DNA of 64,000 bases from Gammaproteobacteria bacterium (GCA_018820395.1 JAHJOG010000263.1:1-64000), one strand, 5' to 3'; counted from the stretch's first letter, positions 21,827-30,383 are shown. The notes: generated by a model not told the origin, from the sequence alone. Numbers and translations are program-made.

Positions 21827-23110
21827 TCATCGCGAGGGGGTCGAGGCCGGCCGGCCGGCGCCGTTTTGCAGCGGACGCCACGATGGCCTCGGCCGCCCCG
21901 ATATCAATCCGCGCCACGAATCCTCCGGCTCCTGCGCGAGCCGCAGGTAGATCATCGCCACGAACAGCAGGCTGAGCCCGATCTGGGCGTCGCGCAGCGC
22001 CGAGTTGGCGTTGATCGCGATGAGCAGGATGAGCATGGCCACGAAGGCCAGGCGGCCGACCAGGTCGTCGCGGCGCCAGGCCTGCCAGAGGCCGGTGAGC
22101 AGGATCGCCAGCAGGCTGAGCGCGCCGGGCAGGCCGGCCTGCGAACCCATCCAGAGCAGGTCGTTGTGCGGCATGTTGTAGTCGGCCAGCAGCTTGGGAC
22201 CGCGCAGGTGCCATTGCTCGGTCCAGCCGCCGATGCCCCAGCCCGCGAGCGGCCGGTCGGCGATCATGCGGGCGGTGTCGCGATACATGTAGTAGCGCAC
22301 GACCCAGCTGCCCTCGGAGACGGCACCGGCCTTGGCGGCCTCGACTTCCTGCACGCCGAGCTCGAACTTCTGCTGCACGGCCGGTGAACTCCAGAGGGCG
22401 CCCGCGATCACCGCGCCGCCCACCACCATCGCGGTGGCAAGCACCTTGAACTGCCGGCGCCACTGGTGCAGGCACGCGGCCGGGATCACGATCAGCAGGC
22501 CGAGCAGTGAAGTGCGCGACGGCAGCGTGATGCTGATGATGAGCGCCACGGCAACGATCACCGCCAGCGCCGGCGGCACGCGCCAGGCCCGCCGATGCGT
22601 GATCGCGTCCAGCGCGAACGTCACGGCGGTCGCGGCGAGGATGGTGAAGAGGAGCGCGTTGCTGATGGACTTGTTGCCCACCAGCACGATGACACCGCGC
22701 CAGGCGTCCCACACCAGGAAGTGCAGGTGGAACCCGTAATACACCGCGATGAGCGCGATGTTGAAGAGCGCCATCAGCAGGAAGCCGCGCAAGGCCCAGA
22801 TGGCTTCGTCGCGCGTGAGCGCCAGCGCCATCAGCACGGTGGCGACGATGCGCAGGCCGTGCACCAGATTGGAGGGCGTTTCGGGGTAGTGCGGCTCGAA
22901 GGCGAGCACCACCAGAGTCCACGCCAGGTAGGCCATCACCGGCCACCACAGCGGGTTGCTTCGCAGGCGTTGCGCCCTTTCGCGCCAATGGCCGGTGCAC
23001 AAGAGTGCGACGAGCATCAGCAGCGCGGCCGCGTACGGCACGCCGACCGGCATGAACACCGTGAGGCCCCAGAACAAGGCCGCCGGGCGTACCAAGACCG
23101 ATCTCTGCAT
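21827..23110 (-). CDS. O-antigen ligase/polymerase family (Wzy_C) membrane protein
   Basis: Multiple TM segments; DRPLAGWGIGGWTEQW...NMPHNDLLWMGSQAGLPGAL ligase loop. Confidence 0.82.
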   Translation of the reverse strand: MQRSVLVRPAALFWGLTVFMPVGVPYAAALLMLVALLCTGHWRERAQRLRSNPLWWPVMAYLAWTLVVLAFEPHYPETPSNLVHGLRIVATVLMALALTRDEAIWALRGFLLMALFNIALIAVYYGFHLHFLVWDAWRGVIVLVGNKSISNALLFTILAATAVTFALDAITHRRAWRVPPALAVIVAVALIISITLPSRTSLLGLLIVIPAACLHQWRRQFKVLATAMVVGGAVIAGALWSSPAVQQKFELGVQEVEAAKAGAVSEGSWVVRYYMYRDTARMIADRPLAGWGIGGWTEQWHLRGPKLLADYNMPHNDLLWMGSQAGLPGALSLLAILLTGLWQAWRRDDLVGRLAFVAMLILLIAINANSALRDAQIGLSLLFVAMIYLRLAQEPEDSWRGLISGRPRPSWRPLQNGAGRPASTPSR

Positions 23111-23238
23111 GGGGCAGGATTCTAGGTGTCGCCCCATTAGCCTTGCAGGGCGCGGGCTTGCGCTTCGAAGACCGGAGGCATCCGATGGCGCGGTCGCGCT
23201 GCACAGCGCCGGGCCGGACGCGTCCGGTCAGGCGGCGT

Positions 23239-24420
23239 TCAGGCCGGCAGTGCGATCACGAAGCTGGCGCCGCCGCCGGACCGCTCTTCGCAGCGCACGC
23301 TGCCGCCGTGCCGCTCGGCGATCGACTTGACCAGGGCAAGCCCCAGGCCGACCCCGCCGTTGCGCTCGCTCGCGCCCGGCAGGCGATAGAAGGGTTCGAA
23401 GATGCGCTCGCGCAGAGCGGCCGGCACGCCGGGCCCACGGTCGCTGACGCGAATCTGCGCTTGACCCGGGCGGCCATCGATCTGCACGCTGATCTCGCCG
23501 GCCCCGTAGCGGCGGGCGTTCTCCAGAAGGTTGCGGATGGCGCGGCGCAAGAGGCGCGGCACGCCCTGGACGGTGAGAGTGTCGCGGTCGACGCTGTCGG
23601 CCAGCTCGAGTTCGGCGTCGACGCGCGCGCATTCCTCGGCCGCGAGGCCGGCCAGGTCGACGGTCTCGACCGTGCCCATGTCGGCTTCCTTGGCGTCGAG
23701 CCGGCTTGCCAGCAGGATCTCGTCGATGAGCTGATCGAGTTCGCCGATGTTGCGCGCGATCTCGTCGCGCGCGGTCGGGGCGGGCTGGTCGCCCATCAGT
23801 TCGAGGCTCATGCGGATGCGGGTGAGCGGCGAACGCAGCTCGTGCGACGCATTGGCCAGCAAGGACTTGTGCGAGCGCACCAGTTGCTCGATGCGCTCGG
23901 CGGCGGCGTTGAACCGGTTGGCCAAATCGGCCACCTCGTCCTGGCCTTCGTCGGCGACCCGCACGGAGAGGTCGCCCTCGCCCCACTTCTGGACGCCGCG
24001 CTGCAGCACCTCGAGCCGCTTGGTGATCCGGCGAACGATCGGGTAGACGCCGAGCGCCACCGCGATGCCGACCAGCGCGATCATCCAGCCCAGGCCGAAG
24101 GGCGTGCGCCAGGGCGCCATTCCACCCGTGCCGTTGCGGCGCTCGCGCGGCGCCACCTGCAGCGTGAGTGCGCGGCCATCGTCCAGTTTCACGTCGAATT
24201 CCAGGCCCTTTCCGGGCACGCGAATCGCCTTGCCCGCGCCGATGGCGAGGTCCTGGTCGTTCAGCACCACCACGTCGCGCGGCAGGGGCGCCAGGCGCTC
24301 GCGCTCGCTCTGCGCGGCTTCGCGCACGATCCAGTTGGCGGTCAGGGTGAGGATGAACACGCCCGCCACCACCGCCAGCCAGACGCGGACGTAGAGGTGG
24401 CGCGTGTAGAGATTGCGCAT
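23239..24420 (-). CDS. Two-component sensor histidine kinase
   Basis: HAMP-like region, LANASHELRSPLTRIRMSLEL, VSDRGPGVPAALRERIFEPFYR; longer start at 24465 possible. Confidence 0.9.
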   Translation of the reverse strand: MRNLYTRHLYVRVWLAVVAGVFILTLTANWIVREAAQSERERLAPLPRDVVVLNDQDLAIGAGKAIRVPGKGLEFDVKLDDGRALTLQVAPRERRNGTGGMAPWRTPFGLGWMIALVGIAVALGVYPIVRRITKRLEVLQRGVQKWGEGDLSVRVADEGQDEVADLANRFNAAAERIEQLVRSHKSLLANASHELRSPLTRIRMSLELMGDQPAPTARDEIARNIGELDQLIDEILLASRLDAKEADMGTVETVDLAGLAAEECARVDAELELADSVDRDTLTVQGVPRLLRRAIRNLLENARRYGAGEISVQIDGRPGQAQIRVSDRGPGVPAALRERIFEPFYRLPGASERNGGVGLGLALVKSIAERHGGSVRCEERSGGGASFVIALPA

Positions 24421-24445
24421 GCGTTGGGCGGGCCCGTGGCGACGA

Positions 24446-25159
24446 TCAGTCTTGCTGTTTGGCAAACACGTAGCCGACGCCGCGCACGGTCAGGATGCGC
24501 TTCGGGTTCTTGGCGTCGATTTCGATGGCGGCGCGGATGCGGCCCATGTGCACGTCGATCGAGCGGTCGAAGGCTTCGAGCTCGCGGCCGCGCACCGCTT
24601 CCATGATCTGGTCGCGCGACAACACGCGGCCGGCGCGCTCGGCCATCGCGACGAGCAGGTCGAACTGGTAGGACGTGAGGTCGGCCGGCTGCCCGGCAAC
24701 GGTGACGCTGCGCGCGTTGCGATCGATTTCCAGCGAGCCGAAGCGCATGACGGTGGCGGCGGTGGACTCGTTCGCGCCTTCGCTGCGGCGGCGCAGCACC
24801 GCGCGGATGCGCGCCAGCAGCTCGCGCGGTTCGAACGGCTTGGGCAGGTAGTCGTCGGCGCCGATTTCCAGGCCGATGATCCGGTCCATCGGGTCGCCCT
24901 TGGCGGTCAGCATCAGCACCGACACCTTGGACAGGCCGTTGGGCAGCGCCCGGATGCGTCGGCACACCTCGAGGCCGTCGGTGTCCGGCAGCATCAGGTC
25001 GAGGATCACGAGGTCGGGCGAGCGCAACTGGAGCTGCTCGATGCCGCTCGCGCCGTCGCCGGCATGGTGAAAGCCGAAACCCGACTTCACAAGGTACTCG
25101 CCGACCATCTGCGCCAGTCGCTCGTCGTCTTCGATCATCAGGAGTTGGGGGGTGCTCAT
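24446..25159 (-). CDS. OmpR-family response regulator
   Basis: LLMIEDDERLAQMVGEYL, VILDLMLPDTDGLEVCRRIR, C-terminal winged helix DVHMGRIRAAIE. Confidence 0.93.
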   Translation of the reverse strand: MSTPQLLMIEDDERLAQMVGEYLVKSGFGFHHAGDGASGIEQLQLRSPDLVILDLMLPDTDGLEVCRRIRALPNGLSKVSVLMLTAKGDPMDRIIGLEIGADDYLPKPFEPRELLARIRAVLRRRSEGANESTAATVMRFGSLEIDRNARSVTVAGQPADLTSYQFDLLVAMAERAGRVLSRDQIMEAVRGRELEAFDRSIDVHMGRIRAAIEIDAKNPKRILTVRGVGYVFAKQQD

Positions 25160-25275
25160 CTCGGTCCTCGGCCGGTGGGTCCGGCTTTCATGTTCACAGC
25201 TTCGCGGGTGGACGACAAGAAGTCTTGAAGGCTCCGTAAAGTTCGCGTAAACCTCTCGCGCCGCAAGCGCCCAGG

Positions 25276-26901
25276 TCAGATCTCGAAGAGCAGTGTGCCC
25301 AGGGCGGCGCCCACCGGCTCGACCGTCATTTTCTCGGCCAGCACCGCGCGCAGGGCCGCGCCGTCGACGCCGGGGTATTCATCACTCACACGCACCAGGA
25401 TCTCGCCGGCCAGCACCCGCAGCTGTTCGACCGAGCCGCGCAGCCGGCTCCGGAACGCCGCGTCGTCGAGCTGGTCGTTCAGGCTGCGGTTGAGCTCGGC
25501 GAACCAGGGCAGGCTGGCCTGGTCGAGCATCACCGGCTTGTTCTGCTTTCGGCTCACGCCCGACCAGGCGCGCAGAAAAGGCTGCATGGCCAGGTTGAGC
25601 CGCTGGCAGTGCTGCAGCTCTTCGCGCAGGCTGCCGAGCACGGCGAGGTCGGTCAGGCGCTCGTGGAAGAAGATCTGCGAGAGCACGCCCCAGTAGTAGG
25701 TGTAGTCCCAGATCACCTTGGCGGGCAGCACTTCGGGGTCGCCGAAGAGCGCGTATTGATCGGTGTAGAGCGCCAGCGTGCTCTCGTAGAACGAGTGGTA
25801 GATCTGGTCGTAGAGCTGCGACCGCGCGTCGAGCGCATGGCCGGCGCGGTCGTGCCCGATCAGGTCGACGATGTAGGTGTTGCTCATCGCGATGAAGTCG
25901 CTGCCGGGCGAATAGAACGGGTCCAGGAAGAGCCCCGCCTCGCCGGTGAGCGCCCAGCGCTGGCTCGAAAACACCTGCTTGCAGCCGTAGGAGAAATTGC
26001 GGAAGAAGGCGAAGTCTTGCAATTGGTCGCGCTTGCCGTCGAGTTCGTCGTGCAGCATCGGCTGCCAGATGCGCAGCCAGTCCATCGCCTTGTCGAAGGT
26101 GTCGAAGGCTTCCAGCGGATGGTGTCTCGGGTCGGCCACGATGCCGATCGAATGCGAACCCGAGGCCAGCGGGATCAGCCAAACCCAGTAGCCCGTGCCG
26201 ACCAGGTGGTTGGTGGACATCCAGCGCGCACGGGGCTCGCAGCGCGCCCGCCAGGCGGGGTCGTCGCTCCATTCGTCGATCTCGATGCGGCCGCGCACGC
26301 GGAACCACACCGCATTGCAGGTGTGCGCATTGGTCTCGGCCAGGCCGAGCTTGCGCTTGAGGATGCCCGCGCGGCCGCAGGCGTCGATCACCCAGCGCGC
26401 CTCGATGTCGTGCGTCTGCTCGCCTTGCACCCAGGCCAGGCGATGTGGCTGGACTTCGTCTGCAGCCAGCTCGATCCGCACGACCCGCGCGTCGTCGACG
26501 AAGCGCACCCCGGCGCGCGTCGCCTCTTCGGCCAGGTAGTTTTCGAAGATGCCACGGTCGATCTGGTAGCTGGGCACCGACAGCGGACGGCTCGCGCCGA
26601 TCTCGGTCACCTCGGCGATGTCGCGCCGGCCTTCGCTGAAGAAGAAGCGAAAGCCGAACTTGCGCAACTGCCGGTCGTCGAGGTGCGGCTTGAGGCCCAG
26701 CACCGTGTCGAAATAGTGCGCGCCGATTTCCACCGACGATTCGCCGACCTTGTGCGTCGCGTGCGGCACCGGGTGCGACCGCCGCTCCAGCACCACCACG
26801 TCGATGTCGGCGAAGCGCTGGCGCAGCTGCAGCGCGAGCGTGAGACCCGCGAGCCCGCCCCCCATGATCACGACGTCGTGACGGCGGAGACCGGCGTTCA
26901 T
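25276..26901 (-). CDS. Flavin-dependent halogenase-like FAD oxidoreductase
   Basis: VVIMGGGLAGLTLALQL FAD motif; GTGYWVWLIPLASG (WxWxIP); FLDPFYSPGSDF (FxxPxxSxG); LRKFGFRF candidate lysine. Confidence 0.78.
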   Translation of the reverse strand: MNAGLRRHDVVIMGGGLAGLTLALQLRQRFADIDVVVLERRSHPVPHATHKVGESSVEIGAHYFDTVLGLKPHLDDRQLRKFGFRFFFSEGRRDIAEVTEIGASRPLSVPSYQIDRGIFENYLAEEATRAGVRFVDDARVVRIELAADEVQPHRLAWVQGEQTHDIEARWVIDACGRAGILKRKLGLAETNAHTCNAVWFRVRGRIEIDEWSDDPAWRARCEPRARWMSTNHLVGTGYWVWLIPLASGSHSIGIVADPRHHPLEAFDTFDKAMDWLRIWQPMLHDELDGKRDQLQDFAFFRNFSYGCKQVFSSQRWALTGEAGLFLDPFYSPGSDFIAMSNTYIVDLIGHDRAGHALDARSQLYDQIYHSFYESTLALYTDQYALFGDPEVLPAKVIWDYTYYWGVLSQIFFHERLTDLAVLGSLREELQHCQRLNLAMQPFLRAWSGVSRKQNKPVMLDQASLPWFAELNRSLNDQLDDAAFRSRLRGSVEQLRVLAGEILVRVSDEYPGVDGAALRAVLAEKMTVEPVGAALGTLLFEI

Positions 26902-26906
26902 GGCGT

Positions 26907-27725
26907 TCAAGCCTGCGGCGAAATCTGCAATTGAAGGTGCACGCCGCCGGCGAGCGGCAGGCCCAGCCGGGCGGCGTCGCCGCGCGCCAGCGCCTCGAAG
27001 AGCGGCAGCGCATCGGCCATGGCGTTGATCTGCAGCGCCCGTGCGGCGGGCGATGCCGGAGCGCCGGCCGGGGCCGCGCCGGGCGCCAGCGACCAATCGA
27101 ACTCGGCCACCGTCCGCTCGGTGCGTTCGGGCGCGATCACCAGGGCCACCGCCAGCAGGTCGCGGCTGGTCGTCACCGACGACAGGGCGCCGACCGACGG
27201 CATGTCGTAGCCGGCGAGCAGCACGGCCTGGTGGTCCGCGGCGCATTGGGCGGCGGCTTCGAGCAGGGCCGAGGCGAAAGTGCTTTCGTAGGCCGACACC
27301 GAGTTGCTCGCGGCCATGCAGCCGGTGCCGATGGTCCAGTAGCCCACCGCAGCGTTGTGCACCGAGTTGTGGAACTTGATGGGCGACAGCAGCTTGGGGT
27401 CGTTGGCCAGCGTGCTGCACATGTAGTCGTTGATGCCGAGGTCGCCATGGGCCGAGGCGAAAACGCAGGGCAGGTCGGCCGCCTGCCGGCCGGACGCAGC
27501 GATGGACGCCGCGGCCACCTCGAGGGCCAGGGCCACGGTGTCGGGCGCGCGGCGGCGCTCTGCCGGGGCCAGCACCTGCGGCGACGGCCGCTTGGCGGGC
27601 GGGTCGGCCGGCTCGGCTTCGCCGCGGAACACGGCGCGCGCCAGCTCCCAACCTGGCAGGCTCGGCGCCCACAGGGCCGGGCCTTCGATGTAGAGAGTCG
27701 GCGTCTTGGCTGGCGTGGCGCTCAT
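26907..27725 (-). CDS. Beta-ketoacyl synthase-like chain-length-factor-type protein
   Basis: MSATPAKTPTLYIEGPALWAPSLPGWELARAVFRGE...FASAHGDLGINDYMCSTLAND..KFHNSVHNAAVGYWTIGTGCMAASNSVSAYESTFASALLEAA. Confidence 0.8.
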   Translation of the reverse strand: MSATPAKTPTLYIEGPALWAPSLPGWELARAVFRGEAEPADPPAKRPSPQVLAPAERRRAPDTVALALEVAAASIAASGRQAADLPCVFASAHGDLGINDYMCSTLANDPKLLSPIKFHNSVHNAAVGYWTIGTGCMAASNSVSAYESTFASALLEAAAQCAADHQAVLLAGYDMPSVGALSSVTTSRDLLAVALVIAPERTERTVAEFDWSLAPGAAPAGAPASPAARALQINAMADALPLFEALARGDAARLGLPLAGGVHLQLQISPQA

Positions 27726-28915
27726 GCTGCGGCTCCCTTGCCGAACACGAGCGAGCAGTTGTTGCCGCCGAAGCCGAAGGAGTTGCTCAGCGCATGCCGC
27801 ACGTTGCCGCGCGCCGGCTCGAGCTTGATCTGAGGGCCGCACTCGGGGTCGAGTCGGCCGGTGTTGACCGTGCCCGGCATCAGCCCTGTTTCGAGCGCCA
27901 GCAGGCTGATGACGGCCTCGACGATGCCGGCCGCACCCAGCGTGTGTCCGGTGAAGCCCTTGGTGGAGCTGGCGTGCGTGCTTGCCGGAAACCGGCGTGT
28001 CACCAGCGCGCCTTCGACCTCGTCGTTCTTCATGCTGGCGGTGCCGTGCATGTTGATGTAGTCGATCGAGTCGGCCGCGATGCCGGCGCGGGCCAGCGCA
28101 TCGTCCAACGCTTTCTCGGCGCCCAGGCCCTGCGGATGCGGCGTGGACATGTGGTGCGCGTCGCTCGCCTCGCCGTAGCCCTGGAGCTCGAGCGCGCCGG
28201 GGCCGCGCTCGATCAGCGCGAAGCCGGCGGCCTCGCCGAGGCTGATGCCGTTGCGTCCGGCGTCGAAGGGACGGCAGGGTTCGGGCGACACGAGCTCCAG
28301 CGAGTTGAAGCCGAACAGCACGCTGCCGCAGAGCGTGTCGACGCCGCCCACCACGGCTGCGTCGACCAGCCCCAGGCGGATCAGCCGCTCGGCCGATGCG
28401 AAGGCCTTGGCGCTCGACGAGCAGGCGGTCGAAATGGTTTCGGACGGGCCTTCGAGACCGAGCGCCTCCTGCACGAACATCCCCAACGAATGCGGGGTGT
28501 GGACCCGCGGGCGGTGCTGGTCCGGCGGAAAGCTGCCGTCGGCCTGGAGCTGCGTGTACGACAGCTCGGTCTCGCCGATGCTGGACGTCGACGTGCCGAG
28601 GATCAGCGCGACGCGCGTCGGGCCGTAGCGTTCACGCGCCTGCGCCACCGCATCGATGAAGCCATCGGCCTGCAGACCGAGCCAGGCCAGCCGGTTGTTG
28701 CGGCAGTCCCAGGCGGCGAGGTGTTCAGGAAGGCGAAGCGCTTCGAGGCCTTCCACGCGCCCGATCCAGGTCGGAAGCGGCGCGTCGCCGAAGTCGTTGG
28801 CGCGCAGGCCGCTCCGGGATTGCTCCATGGCCTGGAGCAGCGCGGCCTTGCCGACGCCGACCGCCGATGTCGCCGTGTAGGCGCTGATCTTGAGGGGTTG
28901 AATGGGAGAGGGCAC
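27722..28915 (-). CDS. Beta-ketoacyl-ACP synthase (FabB/FabF-like)
   Basis: GTG start: VPSPIQPLKISAYTATSAVGVG; TACSSSAKAF, YINMHGTASMKNDEVE, SSTKGFTGHTLGAAG, NSFGFGGNN. Confidence 0.88.
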   Translation of the reverse strand: MPSPIQPLKISAYTATSAVGVGKAALLQAMEQSRSGLRANDFGDAPLPTWIGRVEGLEALRLPEHLAAWDCRNNRLAWLGLQADGFIDAVAQARERYGPTRVALILGTSTSSIGETELSYTQLQADGSFPPDQHRPRVHTPHSLGMFVQEALGLEGPSETISTACSSSAKAFASAERLIRLGLVDAAVVGGVDTLCGSVLFGFNSLELVSPEPCRPFDAGRNGISLGEAAGFALIERGPGALELQGYGEASDAHHMSTPHPQGLGAEKALDDALARAGIAADSIDYINMHGTASMKNDEVEGALVTRRFPASTHASSTKGFTGHTLGAAGIVEAVISLLALETGLMPGTVNTGRLDPECGPQIKLEPARGNVRHALSNSFGFGGNNCSLVFGKGAAA

Positions 28916-28994: not shown

Positions 28995-30383
28995 TTATTC
29001 GCCCGCTCGGCCCGCGTCGGGGGCGCCCGGCATGGCGCCCGCCGCACCGTTCGCCGACGAACGCCGGGCCCGTGCGGCCAGCACCACCAGCAGCAGCACC
29101 GGCACGCCCAGCAACGCCGTCCCGATGAAGAAGGGGCGGTAACCGTACCCGTCGACGAACACGCCCGAGTAGCCGGCGATGAATTTCGGCAGCAGCAGCA
29201 TCAGCGAACTGAAGAGCGCGTATTGCGTGGCCGAATAGCTGACGTTGGTCAGGCTCGACAGGTAGGCGATGAACGCGGCCGACGCGATGCCGCCCGCCAG
29301 GTTGTCCGCCGACACCACGAAGATGAGACCGTAGAGGTCGTGGCCGCGCGAGGCGAGCCACGCGAAGAGCAGGTTGCTCGCCGCGCTCAGCACGGCTCCC
29401 AGCATCAGCACGCGCATCACGCCCAGGCGCATCGACAGCACGCCGCCGACGAAGGCGCCCACCAGCGTCATCGCCACGCCGTAGATCTTGCTGACCGACG
29501 CCACCTCGTCCTTGGTGAAGCCCATGTCGACGTAGAAGGGGTTGGCCATGATGCCCATCACGACGTCGCTGATGCGGTAGATGGCGATCAGCGACAGGAT
29601 CAGCACCGCCTGCCACTTGTAGCGCCCGATGAAGTCGGCAAACGGTTCGATCAGCACGGCGTGCAGCCATTCGGCCGCGTTGCGCGTCGGCGGCAGCGCG
29701 ACGCGCGCGGGCTCCGGCGACAGCAGCACGGTGACCACGCCCACCGCCATCGACGCCGCCATCACCAGATAGGCCGTCTTCCAGCCGCCGTTCTGATAGC
29801 CCGAGGCGCCGCTGAGCTCGGAATAGGCGGCAATCCACAGCACGCCCGCGCCGGCCCAGATCATGGCGAGCCGGTAGCCGGTCTGGTAGGCCGCCGCCAG
29901 CGCCGCCTGCTTGCGGCTCGCTGCGGATTCGATGCGAAAGGCATCGAGCGCGATGTCCTGCGTGGCCGAACCGAAGGCCACCAGCAGCGCGGCCCAGATC
30001 AGCGGCTTCAGCCCGTCGCTCGGGTCGTTGAACGCCATGCCGATCAGGCCCGTCACCACGGCAGCTTGCGCCAGCAGCAGCCATCCGCGGCGCCGCCCGA
30101 GCAAGGTGGTGAGCGGCGGCACCGGAAGGCGGTCGACCAGCGGCGCCCACACCCACTTGAATCCGTAGGCGAGCCCGACCCAGCTCAGGTAGCCGATGGT
30201 GGTGCGGTCCACGCCGGCTTCGCGCAATCGAAAGCTCAACGTGCCCAGCACCAGCAGCAATGGCAGGCCCGCCGAGAAGCCCAGTGCCAGCATGCGCAGC
30301 GTCGCGGGTTCGAGATAGACCTTGAGCGCGTCGCGCCAGGGCAGGGGAGAAGGCGAGGCTTCGGCAGTCGAAGGTTCTGACAT
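28995..30383 (-). CDS. ampG: AmpG-family muropeptide MFS transporter
   Basis: 462 aa, ~12 TM; LGFSAGLPLLLVLGTLSFRLREAGVDRTTIGYLSWVGLAYGFKWVWAPLVDRL. Confidence 0.87.
   Translation of the reverse strand: MSEPSTAEASPSPLPWRDALKVYLEPATLRMLALGFSAGLPLLLVLGTLSFRLREAGVDRTTIGYLSWVGLAYGFKWVWAPLVDRLPVPPLTTLLGRRRGWLLLAQAAVVTGLIGMAFNDPSDGLKPLIWAALLVAFGSATQDIALDAFRIESAASRKQAALAAAYQTGYRLAMIWAGAGVLWIAAYSELSGASGYQNGGWKTAYLVMAASMAVGVVTVLLSPEPARVALPPTRNAAEWLHAVLIEPFADFIGRYKWQAVLILSLIAIYRISDVVMGIMANPFYVDMGFTKDEVASVSKIYGVAMTLVGAFVGGVLSMRLGVMRVLMLGAVLSAASNLLFAWLASRGHDLYGLIFVVSADNLAGGIASAAFIAYLSSLTNVSYSATQYALFSSLMLLLPKFIAGYSGVFVDGYGYRPFFIGTALLGVPVLLLVVLAARARRSSANGAAGAMPGAPDAGRAGE

Follow-up and report, generated by a model that had tools for sequence, protein, structure and literature searches.

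The three-gene unit and its flanks

Three tightly coupled open reading frames on the minus strand, encoding a ketosynthase (KS), a chain-length-factor-like protein (CLF) and an FAD enzyme (HAL), lie in a window of 64 kb, the whole stretch of DNA analysed, from a Variovorax genome available as a draft of 331 contigs. The KS and CLF genes overlap by 4 nt (ATGA, 27722-27725) and 5 nt separate the CLF stop codon from the ATG of HAL, an arrangement described in the earlier note and reproduced by the ORF coordinates. AmpG lies 79 nt upstream of the trio and a response regulator 116 nt downstream. The features are as follows:

28995-30383, minus strand: AmpG-like MFS permease, the conserved upstream neighbour (MFS_1, Acatn; synteny)
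27722-28915, minus strand: aryl-polyene type ketosynthase, ApeO-like, 397 aa, GTG start, clade B (PRK09185, PDB matches, C165/H290/H324, trees)
26907-27725, minus strand: chain-length-factor-like protein, ApeC-like, 272 aa (PF13723, PDB matches, SVHN, Q160)
25276-26901, minus strand: FAD-dependent halogenase-like enzyme (HAL), 541 aa (PF04820, profile matches, motifs)
25236-25251, minus strand: TTTAC-N6-TTTAC, a direct repeat ahead of the response regulator gene, conserved in relatives
24446-25159, minus strand: OmpR-type response regulator, the conserved downstream neighbour (PF00072, PF00486)
23239-24465, minus strand: histidine kinase that pairs with this regulator (HAMP, HisKA, HATPase_c)
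21827-23137: O-antigen ligase-like protein (Wzy_C), adjoining the two-component system and kept in most Variovorax relatives

When 24 proteins of the pathway and of its neighbours were used as tblastn queries, no further pathway gene was found within the 64-kb window, so the pathway does not form a single physical cluster here; the earlier note had likewise placed ampG and a two-component system, and none of the other pathway genes, next to the trio. The TTTAC-N5/6-TTTAC repeat occurs between HAL and the regulator gene in 54/54 relatives, is present as a single copy in the window, and is absent from the other pathway loci examined. Judged from its position, it is likely the two-component system's own (autoregulatory) binding site and marks the end of the trio's unit. 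A role of the two-component system as pathway regulator is unsupported, since the repeat stands upstream of the system's own gene only and not at those other loci.

The KS belongs to the NCBIfam subfamily PRK09185 (511 bits), and its closest PDB chains are 6qsp_A (E 1.5e-71) and 7f28_B (E 1e-69). The Cys-His-His residues pointed out earlier are C165, H290 and H324, an intact catalytic set. The aryl-polyene resemblance claimed for the CLF was also borne out: it matches PF13723 (E 1.2e-25), and its closest PDB chains are 6qsp_B (E 1.6e-8) and 7f28_A (E 2.5e-5). It lacks the C-terminal half of a KS and keeps a conserved SVHN stretch and glutamine Q160, which may correspond to a CLF glutamine that was essential in Lysobacter (PMC3691225). 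Among solved structures, the window KS and CLF are thus closest to the ApeO-ApeC proteins of Xenorhabdus and Acinetobacter (6qsp, 7f28), which form a heterodimer that elongates aryl polyenes (PMC8358021). The window pair has the combination expected of an aryl-polyene (APE) synthase, an ApeO-type KS with a short PF13723 CLF-like partner. Because this CLF is the only PF13723 protein in a genome-wide search, the pair is the probable elongating KS-CLF of the APE pathway in this genome.

The FAD enzyme

HAL matches PF04820 (Trp_halogenase; E 3.2e-15) as well as general FAD-oxidoreductase families. It contains GGGLAG as well as WVWLIP and FLDPFYSPGSDF, the two motifs reported in the earlier note, and the note's candidate catalytic lysine is K81. 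This residue does not vary in sets of 21 and of 39 homologues; nor, in the 39, do WxWxIP and FxDPxxSPG, which align with the halogenase motifs. In most alignments K81 falls on the active-site lysine of PltA, ChlB4 and CmlS. HAL has all the motifs of flavin-dependent halogenases, and shares with CmlS, PltA and ChlB4 the same i) GxGxxG, ii) WxWxIP, iii) FxxPxxSxG and iv) active-site lysine. In profile comparison the best PDB match is CmlS (E 3e-23), followed by PltA, a Cytophaga flavoprotein (3nix) and ChlB4; by this measure HAL is closest to halogenases that act on carrier-bound substrates. The 3nix protein, a "flavoprotein/dehydrogenase" of unproven activity, also has the lysine and WxWxIP, and the halogenase motifs are therefore necessary, not sufficient, evidence of halogenation.

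HAL might instead hydroxylate or desaturate the aryl polyene as an FAD monooxygenase or reductase, a reading that is unlikely though it deserves some weight. The matches to general FAD-oxidoreductase families agree with it, as does the motif context of HAL, GEAG...YSPG versus GDA...FSSG in classical halogenases. In a tree that included no proven reductases, HAL is also separate from CmlS, PltA and ChlB4, in a deep clade of its own with Janthinobacterium and Gloeothece proteins and no characterised member. However, HAL has the lysine, WxWxIP and FxxPxxSxG, none of which varies, and CmlS, PltA and ChlB4 rank among its best profile matches. Furthermore, Xanthomonas clusters for brominated pigments carry a halogenase gene, whereas Lysobacter, without it, makes a non-brominated pigment (PMC3691225). 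HAL is probably a tailoring halogenase of an aryl polyene; that it halogenates, and at which site, is an inference.

A relative of HAL occurs outside APE clusters on a Janthinobacterium plasmid (L240, 11989-13587). This HAL-like enzyme (40%) is neighboured by a type I PKS, an antiporter, an aspartyl/asparaginyl hydroxylase-like protein and a PPTase.

A probable dispersed aryl-polyene pathway

The earlier note had suggested looking elsewhere in the genome for the remaining aryl-polyene genes, and these were found on other contigs. C49 carries an AMP ligase, a dehydratase (DH2), a LipA-type acyltransferase, LolA_3, MMPL, a deacetylase, a methyltransferase, a second dehydratase (DH1) and a ketoreductase (KR). 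The end of C248 carries HAL2 and the 5' part of a chorismatase of the XanB2/ArcB type, which is split by the contig break; its 3' part opens C157 and is accompanied by an acyltransferase and a glycosyltransferase. PAP2, an acyl carrier protein (ACP) and KS2 are on C211. Since another genome (G255, L110) has the same order in one piece, the contigs C248, C157 and C49 probably derive from a single locus that was fragmented in assembly. The genome as a whole therefore holds the ACP (C211), the KR and two DH (C49), an aryl starter supply (chorismatase on C248/C157, AMP ligase on C49) and, for export and attachment, an MMPL exporter, a LolA-like carrier, lipid acyltransferases and a glycosyltransferase. 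By the earlier note's own account, a complete APE cluster at another locus, equipped with a KS-CLF pair, would have counted against its proposal; a PF13723 and PF00109 search of this genome found none, and the one PF13723 protein is that of the window. A 224-aa ORF at 1520-2194 of C49, considered as a new gene, is a wrong frame of the SAM methyltransferase.

HAL2 (L140 10300-11619, on C248 of this genome) is a second FAD halogenase-like gene beside the chorismatase, in the ArcA/XanB1 position. It is present in 38 of the 44 APE genomes examined and forms a clade clearly separate from HAL.

A scan for relatives covered 84,980 species. The best matches are in Variovorax, followed by Xenophilus, Pseudacidovorax, Rhizobacter, Piscinibacter, Rubrivivax and Hydrogenophaga. 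Among the 80 best loci, the order KS-CLF-HAL recurs in 71 and the longer order AmpG-KS-CLF-HAL-RR-HK, with the response regulator and histidine kinase, in 52. The trio genes are under purifying selection (median dN/dS 0.18, 0.29 and 0.30). Given this selection and the recurrence in 71/80 loci, the trio is not a chance association. In Piscinibacter defluvii (L231), Rubrivivax (L234, L237), Inhella (L239) and one further locus (L227) the trio lies within one complete APE cluster, which also holds a second KS-CLF pair beside DH1-KR. It is likewise inside an APE cluster in Hydrogenophaga, and more distant trios from other families of the class are also found among APE genes. In a family sample, HAL was present in 24 of 299 genomes, all 24 of which have an APE-type MMPL exporter. 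The PAP2 marker was found in 21/24 HAL genomes versus 33/275 others (Fisher p 8e-15, uncorrected for relatedness).

Variovorax, Xenophilus, Pseudacidovorax and several further genera carry the trio on its own, physically apart from other pathway genes. In Variovorax it seems isolated because the rest of the pathway is kept at distant loci. Relatives with long contigs have the trio and the exporter far apart or on separate contigs. In strain WS11 the trio lies at about 2.96 Mb on a 4.2-Mb contig and the exporter at 36 kb of a contig; in J22R193 the positions are 1.70 Mb and 156 kb; and in J22R187 the coordinate of the exporter exceeds the length of the contig carrying the trio. Each such pair represents either one contig with the two genes at that distance or two contigs. 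For the Variovorax genomes compared with this one, the separation is thus about 1.5 Mb or more, unless the exporter is on another contig. In Piscinibacter the two are adjacent.

From gene content, protein families, motifs, synteny, phylogeny and selection, the trio is very probably the elongation core, linked to a halogenase, of an aryl-polyene pathway of the xanthomonadin type whose genes are scattered across several Variovorax loci. The class itself is a known one, the yellow membrane pigments of the xanthomonadin-like aryl polyenes. Of the two readings offered in the earlier note, a stripped-down APE-like locus relying on genes elsewhere stands, the missing genes being on other contigs of the same genome, and a distinct small halogenated lipid or polyketide pathway does not, the same trio being part of complete APE clusters in relatives.

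The latter would make a halogenated lipid or short polyketide independently of the APE, drawing its ACP, reductase and dehydratase from fatty-acid synthesis. The isolation of the trio in several genera speaks for it, and so do the genomes whose main cluster has another KS-CLF pair, since there the trio's pair could serve otherwise. Nevertheless, it is highly improbable and was rejected: with no second KS-CLF in Variovorax it would leave the APE cluster without an elongating enzyme, and it does not account for trios inside the APE clusters of Piscinibacter, Rubrivivax, Inhella and Hydrogenophaga or among the APE genes of other families. Decay of a former APE cluster, with the trio as what is left of it, is less probable still. 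It would fit the absence of most cluster genes from the trio's surroundings and of the halogenase from a congener (G122), but the dN/dS values of 0.18-0.30, the intact catalytic residues, and a position and operon structure kept in 52/80 relatives disfavour it.

What looks like a minimal set of three genes can thus turn out to be the core of a dispersed pathway, set apart from the rest, and cluster-finding software that relies on neighbouring genes could miss or mislabel such cores.

Known systems and two synthase lineages

A CLF-KS pair with a neighbouring halogenase was already drawn for V. paradoxus in 2013, with the nearby halogenase absent in Lysobacter and Xylella (PMC3691225, Fig. 5 legend), and xanthomonadin-like clusters have been reported in V. 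paradoxus (PMC3949708). The Xanthomonas pig/xan and L. enzymogenes clusters (PMC3691225, PMC3838355) resemble the dispersed pathway in having a KS beside a short CLF-like protein and, Lysobacter and Xylella apart, a halogenase near the pair. Also shared with xanthomonadin systems are a chorismatase (XanB2), an AMP ligase, an ACP, acyltransferases, an exporter and a LolA-type carrier. Unlike the xanthomonadin cluster, the genes here are spread over several loci, and the trio stands alone by ampG and the two-component system. Xanthomonas has two halogenase-like genes, H and XanB1, of which XanB1 adjoins XanB2 (PMC3838355), as this genome has HAL and HAL2; by gene position in the papers, HAL would match H, and HAL2 and ArcA would match XanB1.

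The arcuflavin pathway of Azoarcus sp. BH72 has the same gene set and is also split, its two unlinked loci both being required for pigment (PMC3949708); a single cluster is therefore not strictly defining for the class. Local orders are similar (KS-CLF-DH-KR and halogenase-chorismatase-MipA-acyltransferase-glycosyltransferase), but ArcK-ArcJ, beside a dehydratase and a reductase, occupy the position of pair A (see below), unlike the window pair. One halogenase is listed for Azoarcus, ArcA in the HAL2 position, and its pigment is non-brominated (PMC3949708), which by analogy would fit HAL as the brominating enzyme.

A sequence of reactions and a product can be proposed by reference to the characterised APE and xanthomonadin systems. 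The chorismatase (C248/C157) would produce hydroxybenzoate, and the AMP ligase (C49) would load it onto an ACP, probably that of C211. The window KS-CLF heterodimer would add malonyl units to the ACP-bound starter, and the ketoreductase and dehydratases of C49 would convert the chain to a conjugated polyene. HAL, with FADH2, O2 and halide, may halogenate the ACP-bound aryl or polyene chain. The acyltransferases, glycosyltransferase, LolA and MMPL exporter (C49, C157) would transfer the product onto a lipid and then to the outer membrane, where the pigment is predicted to shield the cell from light and oxidants.

A tree of 61 KS proteins splits the pair beside DH1-KR (A) from the pair beside HAL (B), each forming one group in 200/200 bootstrap trees (support 93 and 92). 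Clade B also takes in the KS of the distant trios. The ApeO proteins are placed outside B, with weak support; the window KS differs from ApeO in belonging to this separate, halogenase-linked clade. Both pairs occur in several genomes, and only B in Variovorax and some others. In B-only genomes the main cluster has no KS-CLF at the usual position of A. With only B in Variovorax and a main cluster without A, the window pair is the sole candidate for APE elongation here.

A congener, Variovorax G122, has an AmpG-KS-CLF-RR-HK locus without HAL (L141, 8044-9031), which represents either a natural deletion or the state before gain. Some other genomes have HAL with the A pair only. HAL is thus separable from KS-CLF B and looks like an optional tailoring enzyme. 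We tentatively suggest, as a possibility short of an even chance, that some APE clusters carry two paralogous KS-CLF synthases, canonical A and halogenase-linked B, with different chain lengths or substrates; that B with the halogenase is a transferable module leading to a halogenated polyene, which in Variovorax displaced A fully; and that the non-orthologous HAL and HAL2/ArcA/XanB1 act at different positions. The halogenase-less G122 and the genomes with two pairs offer natural experiments on the effects of halogenation and of a second synthase on APE pigments. The dispersed layout is of interest, and specialists may want to look at the paralogue swap and at the sister genome that lacks the halogenase.

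The CLF of clade B has a cysteine, C136 in the window protein (26907-27725), that aligns with the KS nucleophile C165, although this CLF still lacks the C-terminal histidines. Most B members and the distant trios have a cysteine at this position; in clade A and ApeC it is occupied by serine or other residues.
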